A DNA stretch of 64,000 bases from Propionibacterium cyclohexanicum. Lineage in GTDB: Bacteria > Actinomycetota > Actinomycetes > Propionibacteriales > Propionibacteriaceae. The position numbers were made by a program, and so were the translations under genes. This document shows positions 25,312-33,694 of this stretch, piece after piece (positions within the stretch are counted from its first letter, which is position 1; each line of letters begins with the position of its first letter). The stretch is taken from contig NZ_FOGZ01000008.1 in the NCBI RefSeq assembly GCF_900111365.1, positions 1-64,000 on the forward strand. Reading direction: 5' to 3'. The notes under the pieces were generated by a model. The model saw nothing but the letters and a program-made list of their open reading frames with translations. It was not told where the DNA came from and did not search any database.

Positions 25312-25950
25312 TCAGTCGTGTCTCACCGGGTCGCGCCCTGTCTGGCGCCAGGCCTCCAGCCCCTCGCGCACCGCGAAGACGGCAATGACCAGCCCCGCAA
25401 GCGGATCCGCCCATGTCCATCCCAGGGTGAGGTTGAGGAGCAGACCGGCGAGGACTGCCACCGACAATGCCGCACAGACCAGGGTCTGCGTGGAATCGGC
25501 CACCGCGGACGCCGAGCCCAGCTGTCTGCCGGCGCGCAGCTCCAGCACGCTCAATCCCGGCATGACAATCATGGACACCACCGCCGGGGCAATGCCCACC
25601 GCGGACTGCTCGGGTGTGCGCCGCCCGGCGAGGGTGAGTGCCGCGTCGAGACAGACGAACGCCGCCACCCCGAGGAAGGAGATGGCGATGAGCCGCAGGG
25701 CCGTCCTCTCCCGGGTTGCGGGATCCGGTGCCGCGAACTGCCAGGCGACTGCCGCCGCGGACAGGACCTCGACGATCGAGTCGAGCCCGAATCCCAGCAG
25801 CGCGGTCGAGCCGGCGGCCGAGCCCGCCGCAAGCGCGACGACCGCCTCGACCACGTTGTAGGCGACGGTCGCGGCCACGATCTGACGGATTCTGCGCTCG
25901 AGGAGACGCCTCCTGGCATCGCTCGGCGCGGCAGCGGTCGGGGCCGTCAT
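25312..25950 (-). CDS. Cation diffusion facilitator-like metal transporter
   Basis: A 212-residue hydrophobic protein with about six membrane segments and the CDF-like motifs GFGLDSIVEV in an early helix and VADSTQTLVC in a later one. It lacks a long C-terminal cytoplasmic domain, like the short CDF proteins found behind ArsR genes. Efflux of a divalent metal is expected. The start overlaps the stop of the CmtR-like regulator (ATGA), so expression depends on reading through that gene, which is disrupted. Confidence 0.8.
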   Translation of the reverse strand: MTAPTAAAPSDARRRLLERRIRQIVAATVAYNVVEAVVALAAGSAAGSTALLGFGLDSIVEVLSAAAVAWQFAAPDPATRERTALRLIAISFLGVAAFVCLDAALTLAGRRTPEQSAVGIAPAVVSMIVMPGLSVLELRAGRQLGSASAVADSTQTLVCAALSVAVLAGLLLNLTLGWTWADPLAGLVIAVFAVREGLEAWRQTGRDPVRHD

Positions 25951-26430
25951 GCCGATTCCCGGCTGCGCAGCGCGCCGCAGTCATGTCCGCAGTCCCCGCT
26001 GCGTCCCTGCCTGCTGCATCCACACGTGGCATGGACTCCCGTTCGCGCCCCCGCGTCGCGAAGGCAGCGATGGCCGGTGTCGACCGCCAGGACGACCTCG
26101 AAGAGGTCCGAGAGGGCCGCGCCGATGTGGGAATCGGCGAGTTCATAGCGGGTCGAGCGCCCCTGGGGCAGCGCCACGAGGATCCCGCAGCCCCTCAGGC
26201 AGGCGAGGTGATTCGAGACGTTGGTCCTTGTCAGGCCAAGATCATCGGCGATGGCGCCTGGACTCGCGGGCGCGTCGAGCACTCGGAGCAGGATCCGTGC
26301 GCGGGTGGGATCGGCCAGACATGGCCAGAATCATTAAGGCATGGAACGGCAGGATCCGTGCGCGGGTGGGATCGGCCATCGCACGGCCGATCCTCGTCAT
26401 CGCGTCGAGCCTTTGGGAACTGGTCAGCAC
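25947..26430 (-). pseudogene. CmtR-like ArsR/SmtB metal-responsive repressor, split by a 61-bp insertion
   Basis: The intact C-terminal part (111 residues from 26282) has the winged helix LGLTRTNVSNHLACLRGCG, with the C-x3-C pair used for Cd/Pb binding in CmtR, then LAVDTGHRC and an extra Cys-rich tail. Its N-terminus, MLTSSQRLDAMTRIGRAMAD (GTG at 26430, TATGGT six bases upstream), lies in another frame. Between them is a 61-base insertion: a 30-base direct repeat (26288-26317 and 26349-26378) and 31 bases of filler. Deleting 61 bases restores a continuous CmtR-like protein. It could be a pseudogene, an assembly error or a reversible switch. Confidence 0.75.
26288..26378. repeat. 30-bp direct repeat, 61-bp period, inside the CmtR-like gene
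   Basis: Two exact 30-base copies (26288-26317, 26349-26378) separated by 31 bases that contain an imperfect inverted repeat (CATGGCC and GGCATG around 11 bases). The period of 61 is not a multiple of three, so loss of one copy plus filler would restore the reading frame. Confidence 0.95.
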
Positions 26431-26513: not shown

Positions 26514-26542
26514 TGGCGACCCGGGGAATGCGGTGCTAAAAT
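26514..26542 (+). promoter_or_regulatory. Candidate promoter of the orphan ABC transporter leader
   Basis: TGGCGA and TAAAAT separated by 17 bases. Transcription from here would give a leader of about 180 bases before the permease start. Confidence 0.45.
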
Positions 26543-26551
26543 GTCGGCGCC

Positions 26552-26723
26552 GCCGGGTCGCCAGGGCTTCTGGCTCCGGCATGTGTGCTGCGCCAGGAGG
26601 TGAGAACGATGGACGCCGACAGTAGTAGTCCCCGATCGACATTCCATTCATCCCACCCCGTGCGGTGCACTCTCGACTGACCTGAGCGTCGGGCCTCCTC
26701 GTGCCGTACGGGCGATCGGAGGC
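26552..26723 (+). ncRNA. Structured 5' leader with small ORF and SD-sequestering hairpin
   Basis: Three elements in order. First, a hairpin at 26552-26580 with outer stem GCCGG/CCGGC and inner CCAG/CTGG. Second, a 23-codon ORF at 26609-26680. Third, a hairpin pairing GCCTCC (26693-26698) with GGAGGC (26718-26723), which contains the SD of the permease gene. No riboswitch class I know (M-box, yybP-ykoY, ykkC, cobalamin) matches its conserved bases. Translation of the small ORF or a ligand could decide whether the SD is free; this is inference. Confidence 0.5.
26609..26680 (+). CDS. Putative 23-residue leader peptide
   Basis: An ATG preceded by the near-ideal SD AGGAGGTGAG at five bases. The peptide begins MDADSSSPR, contains six serines and one cysteine, and ends CTLD. 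It stops 47 bases before the permease ATG. The strong SD argues for real translation. The acidic, Ser/Pro start superficially recalls MgtL-type leader peptides (inference only). Confidence 0.5.
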   Translation: MDADSSSPRSTFHSSHPVRCTLD

Positions 26724-26727
26724 TGTC

Positions 26728-28470
26728 ATGACCCTCATCACTCCAACCGGACGCGCCGCGCGTCCCACCGACCGCACAGGCGGCGTGCTGGCCGATCTGT
26801 GCATCCTCATCGTCGCCGCCGCCCTGCTGTGGGGCCTCGTCCAGATGGGTCAGCGCGCCAGCGCGCCGGCCAGCATGGCTGCCGCGCAGGGCACACTCGA
26901 CACGAACCCATGGCTGCTGCCGGGATACACCGGCCAGTCACTGGTGCGGATGTTCGCCGCCCTGGCGGCATCCGTCGTGTTCACCTTCGTCTATGCCACC
27001 GCCGCCGCCCGATCCCGGCGTCTCGGTGCGGTACTCATCCCGCTGCTGGACGTCCTGCAATCGGTGCCCGTGCTCGGCTTCCTCTCGGTGACGGTCACCT
27101 TCTGGATAGCGCTGTTCCCGGGCAGCCGGATGGGGCTGGAATGCGCGTCGGTCTTCGCGATCTTCACCTCCCAGGCGTGGAACATGACCTTTGCGCTGCA
27201 CGACTCGATGATCGCCCAGAAGCAGGACCTCGTGGAATCCGCGCGCCTGTTGCGCCTGACCCGGTGGCAGCGCTTCTGGACGCTCGATCTGCCCGGCGGC
27301 ATGATTCCGCTCACCTGGAACGCCATGATGAGCTTCGGTGGCGGCTGGTTCTTCCTCACCGCATCCGAGGCCATCTCCGTCAACGGGCACTCCTATGTGC
27401 TTCCCGGTATCGGCAGCTATGTGGCCGCCGCGTCCCAACAGCGCCAGCTCGGGCGGCTGTGCCTCGCCATTGCCGTGATGCTCGTCACGGTCTGGCTGCT
27501 CAACGCCGTCGTGTGGAGCCCCCTGTTGACCTGGGCCCAGAAGTTCCGCCTCGGCGACACCGGCTCCTCCGAGAACTCCCGCTCCGTGGTGCTCGATCTG
27601 CTGCGCCGCTCGCACCTGGCCGCCCTGGCCACAGCGCTCGGGCGGAGCCTCAGCGAGGTCTTCGACACCCTCACCAGGCCATTCGGCGCCGGGACCGGCT
27701 GGCCGGCAGCCGCCCGCCCGCGCCGGCGGGTGGGCGACATCGTGTGTGCCGCTGCCATTGCGGTGCCGTGCGTGTGGGGTGCCCTCGCGATGGTGGGCAC
27801 TGTACAGGCCGGACCCGGGCTCGGGGAGTTCGGACGCGCCTTCGCGCTCGGGCTCGCGACCCTGGGGAGGGTGGTTGCGGTCATCGTGCTCGGGACCCTC
27901 ATCTGGGTGCCGGTGGGTGCAGTGATCGGCATGAACACCAGACTGCGTACCATTGCCCAGCCCATTGTCCAGATGCTGGCCAGCTTCCCGGCGAACTTCC
28001 TGTTCCCCTTCGTGACGCTGCTGCTGGTCAGGCACCACTGGAGCCTGAACTGGGGCGGCATCGTGCTCATGGCGCTGGGCTCGCAGTGGTACATCCTGTT
28101 CAACGTCATCGCCGCTGCCAGCGCGATGCCGGCCGACCTGAGGGAGGCCGCCACGAGCCTAGGGCTGCCCCGCGCGCTGCGGTGGCGCACGCTGATCCTC
28201 CCAGCGATCTTCCCTGCCTGGGTCACCGGGGCGCTCACCGCCGCCGGCGGCGCCTGGAACGCATCGATCGTGGCCGAGGTGGTCAGCTATGGCGATACGA
28301 CCTTGCGCGCCACCGGACTCGGGGCCTATGTCGCCGACGCGACGGCAGCCGGAGACTTCCCCCGCGTCCTCGTCGGAGTGCTCGTCATGTGCGTCTACGT
28401 CGTGGGACTCAACCGCCTCGTCTGGCGCCCGCTCGGCGCCCTCGCCAACCGCCGTTTCAGCATTGCGTGA
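26728..28470 (+). CDS. ABC transporter permease with two fused permease domains (NitT/TauT-like)
   Basis: 580 residues containing two BPD_transp_1 halves: the first has its EAA-like loop at LVESARLLRLTRWQRFWTLD, the second at LREAATSLGLPRALRWRTLI. This fused architecture belongs to the nitrate/sulfonate/taurine superfamily. The ATG follows CGGAGG, which is paired in a leader hairpin; a GTG nine codons upstream is the ORF limit but lacks an SD. No substrate-binding protein is encoded next to it, so the substrate is unknown. Confidence 0.85.
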   Translation: MTLITPTGRAARPTDRTGGVLADLCILIVAAALLWGLVQMGQRASAPASMAAAQGTLDTNPWLLPGYTGQSLVRMFAALAASVVFTFVYATAAARSRRLGAVLIPLLDVLQSVPVLGFLSVTVTFWIALFPGSRMGLECASVFAIFTSQAWNMTFALHDSMIAQKQDLVESARLLRLTRWQRFWTLDLPGGMIPLTWNAMMSFGGGWFFLTASEAISVNGHSYVLPGIGSYVAAASQQRQLGRLCLAIAVMLVTVWLLNAVVWSPLLTWAQKFRLGDTGSSENSRSVVLDLLRRSHLAALATALGRSLSEVFDTLTRPFGAGTGWPAAARPRRRVGDIVCAAAIAVPCVWGALAMVGTVQAGPGLGEFGRAFALGLATLGRVVAVIVLGTLIWVPVGAVIGMNTRLRTIAQPIVQMLASFPANFLFPFVTLLLVRHHWSLNWGGIVLMALGSQWYILFNVIAAASAMPADLREAATSLGLPRALRWRTLILPAIFPAWVTGALTAAGGAWNASIVAEVVSYGDTTLRATGLGAYVADATAAGDFPRVLVGVLVMCVYVVGLNRLVWRPLGALANRRFSIA

Positions 28471-28483
28471 AGGAGGATCTGCC

Positions 28484-29755
28484 ATGACCAACCAGGCACT
28501 CATCGAAGTGGACGATGTCACCAAGGCCTTTCCCGCCCAGGAAGGCGGCACCTTCACGGTGCTCGACCACGTGGACCTCCGCCTCGAGGACGGCGAGATC
28601 CTGGCCATCCTCGGCAAGTCGGGATCGGGGAAGTCGACCCTGCTGCGCTGCATCGCCGGGCTCATCGCCCCCAGCGAGGGTACCATCCGTTACCGGGGAG
28701 CCGAGCTGGCAGGTGCCAATCCCGGCGTCGGCATGGTCTTCCAGACCTTCGGCCTGATGCCCTGGCTGGACGTCCGTGAGAACGTCGAACTGGGCCTGCG
28801 GGCGCGCGGCGTCGCCCGGGCTGAGCGCACCGCGCGCGCGGAGGAGCTCATCGATGTGATCGGGCTGAGCGGATTCGAGAATGCCTATCCCCGGGAACTG
28901 TCGGGCGGCATGCGCCAGCGGGTCGGCTTCGCCCGCGCCCTGGTCACCCAGCCGGATGCCCTGCTCATGGACGAACCCTTCTCTGCCCTGGACGTGCTCA
29001 CGGCAGAGAACCTGCGGACCGAGATCGTTCGTCTGTGGTCCGAGCCCGACTTCCCCACGAAGAGCATCTGCATCGTCACGCACAACATCGAGGAGGCCGT
29101 GCTGCTCGCCGACCGTGTCGTGGTGCTGGGCTCCAACCCCGGGCGGGTGCGTCACGAGACACGCATCGATCTGGCACGTCCGCGCGAGCGCCGCAGCGAA
29201 GCGTTCGGAGCCTATGTGGACGAGCTCTATGCTGTCCTCACCGGTCAGCCGGTCGACCCCGCCGCGCCGGCCACGAGCCCGGCCAGCAATCCGCTGCCGC
29301 AGGCCAGCGTCGGCGGCATGGCCGGTCTCGTCTCGCTCGTGGCGGGCGGCCCGAACGGCGGCGACCTGGCCGACCTGGCGGCGAGCCTCAAGTTCGAGGT
29401 GGACGATCTGCTCCCCCTGGTGGACGGGGCGACGATGCTGGGACTGCTCCATGTGGACGCCGGGCAGGCGCAGGTGACCGATGACGGGCTCGCATGGGTG
29501 CGCAGCGACATCGACGAGGGCAAGCGGCTGTTCGGGCGGCTCGCCGCCCAGCGGGCGCCGCTCGTGCACGCCATATGCGCAGCACTGGATTCCAGCGATG
29601 AGGGCACCTTGCGGCTCGATTTCTTCCGCGACCTGCTGCGACGCTCGTTCACGCGTGAGGCGCTCGAGGAGCAGCTGGCAACCGCCATCGACTGGGGCCG
29701 GCATGGCGAGCTGTTCGACCTGGAGCCCGACGGCGAGGTGCTGAGCCGCGGGTAG
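28484..29755 (+). CDS. ABC transporter ATP-binding protein with AAA-associated C-terminal domain
   Basis: 423 residues, starting after AAGGAGGATCTGCC. The first 260 residues are a NitT/TauT-type ATPase (Walker A GKSGSGKSTLLRC, signature LSGGMRQRVGFARAL, Walker B ALLMDEPFSALD). The rest matches the AAA-associated C-terminal domain, which I place from about residue 280 (MAGLVSLVAGGPNGGDLADL) to the end. The added domain probably acts as a regulatory or substrate-sensing part. The gene is 13 bases behind the permease. Confidence 0.85.
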   Translation: MTNQALIEVDDVTKAFPAQEGGTFTVLDHVDLRLEDGEILAILGKSGSGKSTLLRCIAGLIAPSEGTIRYRGAELAGANPGVGMVFQTFGLMPWLDVRENVELGLRARGVARAERTARAEELIDVIGLSGFENAYPRELSGGMRQRVGFARALVTQPDALLMDEPFSALDVLTAENLRTEIVRLWSEPDFPTKSICIVTHNIEEAVLLADRVVVLGSNPGRVRHETRIDLARPRERRSEAFGAYVDELYAVLTGQPVDPAAPATSPASNPLPQASVGGMAGLVSLVAGGPNGGDLADLAASLKFEVDDLLPLVDGATMLGLLHVDAGQAQVTDDGLAWVRSDIDEGKRLFGRLAAQRAPLVHAICAALDSSDEGTLRLDFFRDLLRRSFTREALEEQLATAIDWGRHGELFDLEPDGEVLSRG

Positions 29756-33366: not shown

Positions 33367-33436
33367 CTACAGGAGCAGGAGTCATCAGCCGGACGGCGGT
33401 TCGGGCAGGGCCCTGGCGGAATCCATCGCCGCAACA
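33367..33436 (-). ncRNA. Fluoride riboswitch (crcB motif)
   Basis: The minus strand shows GGCGATGGATTCCGCC, then CGAACCGCC, then CTGATGACTCCTGC, the conserved order of the crcB aptamer. A short hairpin (GGGGC/GCCCC, 33349-33365) follows directly before the start region of the universal stress gene. There is no T-rich terminator, so translational control is more likely. It should turn on usp-fluC-fluC when fluoride enters the cell. Confidence 0.92.
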
Positions 33437-33694
33437 AAGCCTAGCCGGGGCGAGCCAGTGACAAGGCCAGGACCGCGCAGTGGCATTCCCACTGGCCAGG
33501 CCAGGGCCGCTGGGTGACCGGGCCAGCGTGTCCCAGTGGGCCTCGCTGAGGCTCCGAGAGCAACCAGAGTGCCGCGCCGACCAGGATCCGCCGTCGGCCC
33601 TGCCGGGCCTCCGCGCGCCCAACGTCCCTCACAGCACATCGAGGGCGACGCCGCGGGCGTCAGGCCTCGCCGCCCAAGGATGCCAGCCAGCCCC
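33437..33694. other. Intergenic region without recognised gene
   Basis: About 260 bases between the riboswitch and the truncated MFS pseudogene. It should contain the promoter of the fluoride operon on the minus strand, but I could not pick it with confidence. It may also hold the eroded 3' half of the MFS gene, of which no sequence is recognisable. Confidence 0.4.

Follow-up and report, generated by a model that had tools for sequence, protein, structure and literature searches.

The stretch analysed here, referred to as the window, comprises 64,000 nucleotides of the Propionibacterium cyclohexanicum contig NZ_FOGZ01000008.1. The segment under study is the leader of an ABC transporter operon, with the following features:

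26534–26542, forward strand: extended −10-like element TGcTAAAAT, read from the sequence, with a poor −35; putative
26552–26580, forward strand: first hairpin in the short 5′ UTR, predicted from the MFE fold alone
26595–26603, forward strand: Shine-Dalgarno (SD) sequence of the leader ORF, AGGAGGTGA, read in the sequence and ending 5 nt before the ATG
26609–26680, forward strand: leader ORF (uORF) of 23 codons, peptide MDADSSSPRSTFHSSHPVRCTLD*, a member of an acid/Pro/Ser(AGU) leader-ORF family
26621–26629, forward strand: three consecutive in-frame AGU Ser codons (codons 5–7), a conserved codon-level signature
26636–26715, forward strand: C-rich, G-poor (rut-like) stretch following codon 9, where Rho may load, C-G skew 0.19
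26692–26724, forward strand: SD-masking hairpin from the fold, in which the anti-SD GGCCTCC (26692–26698) pairs with GGAGGCT over 7 bp
26728–28470, forward strand: fused double permease of 580 aa, with BPD_transp_1 (PF00528) twice
28484–29755, forward strand: ABC ATPase (PF00005) with a C-terminal AAA_assoc_C domain (PF09821), the partner of the permease; start taken from the translation

No binding protein is encoded between the permease and ATPase genes. The same double-TMD, binding-protein-less architecture with a PF09821-type C-terminal domain was described in a survey of Ca. Liberibacter, where its function was left open (PMC3688454). The best curated models for the permease are nitrate and taurine permeases, with NtrB at 63.5 bits against a cut-off of 209 and TauC at 47 bits against 342, and none of the named NitT/TauT equivalogs (nitrate/sulfonate/taurine) scored over its curated cut-off. 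With the curated transporter models so far under their cut-offs, homology does not give the substrate. Divergent from the operon, a CmtR-like ArsR gene (25950–26400, reverse strand) carries a 61-nt insertion with repeated GCAGGATCCGTGCGCGGGTGGGATCGGCCA in its 5′ part; its frame is shifted and the gene looks broken.

The initial annotation had read this leader as a good promoter, a first hairpin, a 23-codon ORF with a near-perfect SD and a hairpin burying the permease SD, with no known riboswitch core in sight. The ORF and its SD AGGAGGTGA are present as described. What stands of the promoter is the extended −10, which would put the start of transcription near 26549, ∼46 nt ahead of the uORF SD; the −35 is poor and a consensus promoter scan of the leader scored no full promoter. 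The first hairpin is predicted by the fold, with nothing further to speak for it, and over its full 200 nt the leader is no more stably folded than its shuffles (z = −0.45). An Rfam scan of the window gave no family matching the leader, which led us to reject a known riboswitch as its identity. Moreover, the 5′ UTR ahead of the uORF is short both in the window and in relatives with recognizable promoters, so there is little room for an aptamer. Rfam matches the window at one place alone, 33369–33439 on the reverse strand, with a fluoride riboswitch (RF01734, 46.1 bits).

The permease SD (GGAGG, 26718–26722, ahead of the ATG at 26728) is indeed buried in the predicted fold of the window, with a P_unpaired of 0.00 versus 0.28 in shuffles (p = 0.035). 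This part of the earlier description holds for the window, but closure of the hairpin across 13 short-spacer relatives was not significant (Fisher p = 0.21), and an SD-sequestering hairpin was set aside as the conserved element. Folding with the ribosome placed at successive codons likewise revealed no permease-SD switch common to the relatives, and a shared ribosome-position switch was also rejected. SD burial as a conserved switch thus finds no support in the folds of the relatives. Stop codons of the uORFs favor TGA without a strong pattern, and a conserved stop-codon context was discarded as an element. In two relatives (L006 and L004) the 3′ half of the uORF holds a TCACCTCC-like anti-SD that pairs with the uORF's own SD, which suggests self-masking of uORF initiation.

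About 90 permease orthologs were collected at 46–62% identity, nearly all of them from Actinobacteria. The permease is carried by only a few Propionibacteriaceae genomes and is absent from the three genomes of the same genus that were sampled. Many orthologs are preceded by a short ORF with an AGGAGG or GGAGGT SD, the same SD as in the window in most relatives, and a start resembling MxxD[P/G]xS (MGADPHSPC, VSSDPASCR, MSPDDSRPR, MTGDAHSSSPR, VSPDPHSPC, MKSDSHSPC, MGADPPSSS). The initial annotation had staked its proposal on conservation of the ORF in relatives, and the ORF is found conserved, as uORFs ahead of permease orthologs. The window peptide has D2, D4 and P8, placing acidic and Pro residues among its first codons as in MgtL/MgtQ-type leader peptides. 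Its single Cys is not conserved, and a Cys or other amino-acid attenuator was rejected. Members of the family are 10 to 43 codons long with unrelated C-termini, and the spacers between uORF and permease run from 14 to >200 nt with unrelated folds. With a profile trained on uORFs found behind M-boxes (see below), the window peptide outscored all but 5 of 236 background SD-ORFs, and the top scorers shown were mostly leader ORFs of Mg2+ operons too (L091, L094, L134). As it compares residues strictly by position, such a profile fails to pick up members offset by one residue, for example MGADPPSSS. At many mycobacterial permease loci no uORF was found by the criteria used here.

Several loci merit separate mention. 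In Granulicoccus (L005 and L038, an identical locus) the uORF SD and stop-side sequence are still there, but the start codon has been lost together with the AGT codons, which, as read from the locus, is a natural loss of the leader ORF. Outside Actinobacteria, an Armatimonadetes MAG (L108) carries a permease ortholog with a MDSSPSHSCS uORF containing AGT codons, a possible case of transfer or of a binning error. A conserved operator/promoter, CATTTGCGCAAnnnnTTGAATG, lies over the −35 upstream of the uORFs in L042, L043, L046, L049, L072, L114, L154 and L035. It sits upstream of permease and mgtA, in several cases beside a divergent ArsR gene, is absent from the window, and probably marks a metal- or Mg2+-related ArsR regulon.

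The most distinctive property of the family lies in its serine codons, which the initial annotation had passed over in omitting the in-frame AGU codons at 26621–26629. Codons were counted in 75 non-redundant uORFs that had been chosen, in part by eye, for their SD, position and amino-acid resemblance, without regard to Ser codon choice. In this set of related, and thus not phylogenetically independent, loci, AGT at codons 2–10 occurs 129 times in frame and once out of frame, and 72 of the 75 uORFs contain at least one in-frame AGT, with three uORFs lacking AGU. AGT accounts for 126 of 178 Ser codons at positions 2–9, compared with 3% for the permease genes and 5% for the remaining codons of these uORFs. 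At codons 3–9 the proportion is 97/144 (67%) versus 0/42 in control genes with good SDs (Fisher 4.6e-17). The AGU:AGC ratio at codons 2–9 is 126:23, and AGU is also preferred over UCN. Asp or Glu is found within codons 2–9 of 69/75 uORFs and Pro in 65/75; their codons vary synonymously, which the Ser codons do not. Because AGT changes position in steps of whole codons, it is unlikely to belong to a fixed RNA motif; what is kept is the codon. This near-universal use of AGU, a rare Ser codon, near the uORF start suggests that the ribosome itself is the regulatory sensor. A literature search for AGU codons in connection with leader peptides or drop-off returned nothing relevant.

Gene neighborhoods tie the operon to magnesium. 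MgtA-type ATPases, which score 903 and 888 bits with TIGR01524 (cut-off 611), are encoded directly upstream of permease orthologs, as is an MgtC-family protein (NF011912, 209 bits). Of 38 ortholog loci scanned, 8 have an M-box (RF00380) ahead of the permease operon, scoring 107–140 bits against a gathering score of 44. The same type of uORF lies 50–140 nt downstream of those M-boxes, and likewise behind mycobacterial and other M-boxes, an order seen in several genera; at the mycobacterial loci the uORF begins MSPGDSPYP..., with Pro7, which fits the uORF2/Rv1805A peptide of PMC12810186. It is also found before MgtA-first and MgtC-first operons (MTGDGSSPA, MTGEGSSRS, MPDGDSPDS), and none was seen ahead of more distant MgtA/MgtC homologs, which served as an internal control. 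Neither the window nor its own genome contains a match to RF00380; the genome also lacks MgtC and has no MgtA that scores over the cut-off.

Two pattern searches with SD+start+AGTAGTC covered 147 family genomes and 297 class genomes. Among the matches in short in-frame ORFs no shorter than 10 codons were the window itself, leaders of CorA (VSDDVSSSHSPRR) and MgtA (MEPGSSHQR...), one each, and M-box-linked leaders, together with one unclear match lacking a recognizable downstream gene (L241). The pattern occurs a single time in the window's own genome. Further members, of 10–13 codons and all with AGT (MPSEPPSPRN, MSNEPPSPAN, MNGQPPSTR, MSDQPPSRPS), came from a separate search of the family for CorA, in which most CorA loci had no such uORF. 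The pattern SAYAGTC was dropped, as in 138 class genomes it gave mainly out-of-frame or in-gene chance matches and one M-box CorA leader. The early hunch that the peptide recalls leader peptides acting at low Mg2+ has gained support from homologous uORFs before MgtA, MgtC, CorA and M-box operons and from permease orthologs adjoining MgtA and MgtC. Comparison of these loci leaves the leader element and its Mg2+ link well supported, and the double permease is predicted to be an ABC transporter of the Mg2+ regulon.

Directly after the AGU codons the C>G skew of the family reaches its maximum. Over the 80 nt following codon 9 the mean C-G skew is 0.160, compared with 0.013 in random 80-mers of the same loci (p about 2e-19). 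In composition this stretch resembles a Rho-loading (rut) site, and Rho-dependent termination has been reported for mycobacterial M-box leaders (PMC12810186).

How much of this has been seen before? The uORF2 behind mycobacterial M-boxes (Rv1805A, Rv1535A, Rv0115A) was called mycobacteria-specific and its role was unexplained (PMC12810186). It resembles the family in its strong SD, in being a conserved short ORF behind M-box leaders and in N-terminal conservation with Pro7, and it appears to belong to it. The window shares the short ORF, strong SD, N-terminal pattern and AGU codons of uORF2/Rv1805A but has no upstream M-box. Unlike uORF2 as described, many relatives lack an M-box and the range extends over Actinobacteria, before CorA, MgtA, MgtC and ABC genes; conservation of AGU codons was not reported for uORF2 in PMC12810186. 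The initial annotation's "undescribed system" was therefore in part already seen, in mycobacteria, whereas its range, codon signature and occurrence without an M-box were not. Judged from the loci compared, the leader-ORF family is widespread in Actinobacteria and largely unrecognized.

Parallels also exist in leaders of E. coli and Salmonella, for which acid-driven ribosome drop-off has been reported (MgtL, PMC11282234; MgtQ, PMC8092293). MgtQ of Salmonella, like the window uORF, is a short ORF with an AGGAGG SD, early acidic residues, a Mg2+ transporter downstream and the RBS in a hairpin (PMC8092293). It differs in lying between mgtC and mgtB and in working by alternative stems, whereas here the stems are not significantly conserved and AGU is the hallmark. 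In E. coli and Salmonella, the leader peptide MgtL likewise precedes a Mg2+ transporter; its N-terminus is of the acid/Pro type and its readout is Rho-dependent (PMC11282234). It belongs to another phylum and the likeness is one of composition only. We know of no AGU signature in MgtL. In TnaC, as presented in the discussion of PMC8092293, a ribosome kept close to a rut site prevents Rho from acting, which is the logic we propose below; signal, peptide and stall site differ, so that this is an analogy only.

The comparison of loci shows a conserved strong-SD uORF with an acidic/Pro/Ser N-terminus and AGU Ser at codons 2–9, followed by a C-rich, G-poor stretch, ahead of actinobacterial Mg2+ transporter genes with or without an M-box. 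We propose, with a probability of roughly one half, that the segment attenuates a Mg2+-transport operon in cis by means of its leader ORF, through Mg2+-sensitive pausing or drop-off at the acid/Pro/AGU stretch with mainly a Rho readout. Ribosomes would initiate efficiently on the uORF. At low Mg2+ the acid/Pro nascent chain and the G-U-wobble-decoded AGU would cause them to pause or drop off within the first ten codons, which would keep Rho from the rut-like stretch just downstream; in the window this early event may also avoid the fold that buries the permease SD, and the ABC transporter would be made. With ample Mg2+, ribosomes would run to the stop codon and leave, Rho would terminate transcription and the SD hairpin would close. 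Both the low-Mg2+ event (pause or drop-off) and the readout (Rho or SD hairpin) are inferred, and the "on at low Mg2+" sign is borrowed from MgtL and the M-box. The logic would be of the MgtL/TnaC type with an added AGU codon component, which has no description in the MgtL and MgtQ literature examined. It speaks against this proposal that an isolated acidic residue is a weaker feature than MgtL's EPDP, and that ribosome destabilization has not been reported to involve any bias toward AGU.

Other readings account for parts of these data. The uORF could be a Rho shield or translational coupler that senses nothing, with Mg2+ sensed elsewhere by an M-box or by an ArsR-type repressor at the promoter. 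Consistent with such a shield, some members of the family carry an M-box whose regulated ORF is the uORF (PMC12810186), several relatives have the conserved ArsR-type operator CATTTGCGCAA..TTGAATG at their promoter, and the leader is C-rich. It leaves the 129:1 in-frame AGU conservation and the acidic/Pro N-terminus unexplained, however, and the window has neither M-box nor ArsR-type operator, its divergent CmtR-like gene appearing frameshifted; we regard it as unlikely. A purely translational switch of the MgtQ kind, independent of Rho, would have early ribosome occupancy let the uORF 3′ half (about 26655–26666) pair with 26701–26712 and prevent the hairpin at 26692–26724, which would form upon full or no translation. 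The MgtQ precedent (PMC8092293), the window hairpin (p = 0.035) and a 12-bp alternative helix predicted on folding the uORF region are in its favor. In the window, masking of the permease SD is complete (P_unpaired 0.00) with the P-site beyond codon 13, and this SD is slightly open (about 0.2) with the ribosome at codon 11 or earlier. This effect is modest and is not shared by the relatives, whose spacers of 14 to >200 nt and unrelated folds also speak against such a switch; we consider it distinctly unlikely.

Alternatively, the leader might sense AGU decoding as such, that is the state or modification of tRNA-Ser(GCU), with Mg2+ involved only indirectly. The extreme preference for AGU over AGC and UCN would suit this, but charging alone does not fit because AGC, read by the same tRNA, is not favored; no serine-related genes were seen downstream and Asp/Pro are conserved too, and we consider the idea improbable. 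It is more doubtful still that the transporter is an ordinary NitT/TauT-type importer whose Mg2+ link is coincidental: nitrate and taurine permeases are its best curated models, yet all scores are far under cut-off (NtrB about 63 of 209 bits), a binding protein is missing and the association with MgtA, MgtC and M-boxes is repeated. Least weight of all is given to a small peptide acting in trans, as has been suggested for Rv1805A, for instance through binding to the transporter. Its N-terminal residues are conserved and a peptide role has been proposed (PMC12810186), but members of 10 to 43 codons with unrelated C-termini argue otherwise, and conservation of Ser at the codon level indicates decoding in cis.

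Within the Mg2+-sensitive attenuator that we favor, we raise one further and rather speculative possibility, which we think fairly unlikely: AGU decoding by tRNA-Ser(GCU) via G-U wobble may itself be Mg2+-sensitive, such that Actinobacteria would monitor cytosolic Mg2+ by how well the ribosome reads AGU beside acid/Pro residues, as a general attenuator for CorA, MgtA, MgtC and the new ABC-type Mg2+ transporter. As AGU is conserved in frame, the question is directly testable by synonymous mutations.

The comparison widens uORF2/Rv1805A to Actinobacteria and argues for a cis role. If the proposal is true, Actinobacteria would gain a counterpart of MgtL/MgtQ, uORF2/Rv1805A of mycobacteria a testable cis-acting role, and the orphan double-permease ABC system a predicted place in the Mg2+ regulon, and a codon-level (AGU) element would be added to ribosome-based ion sensing.
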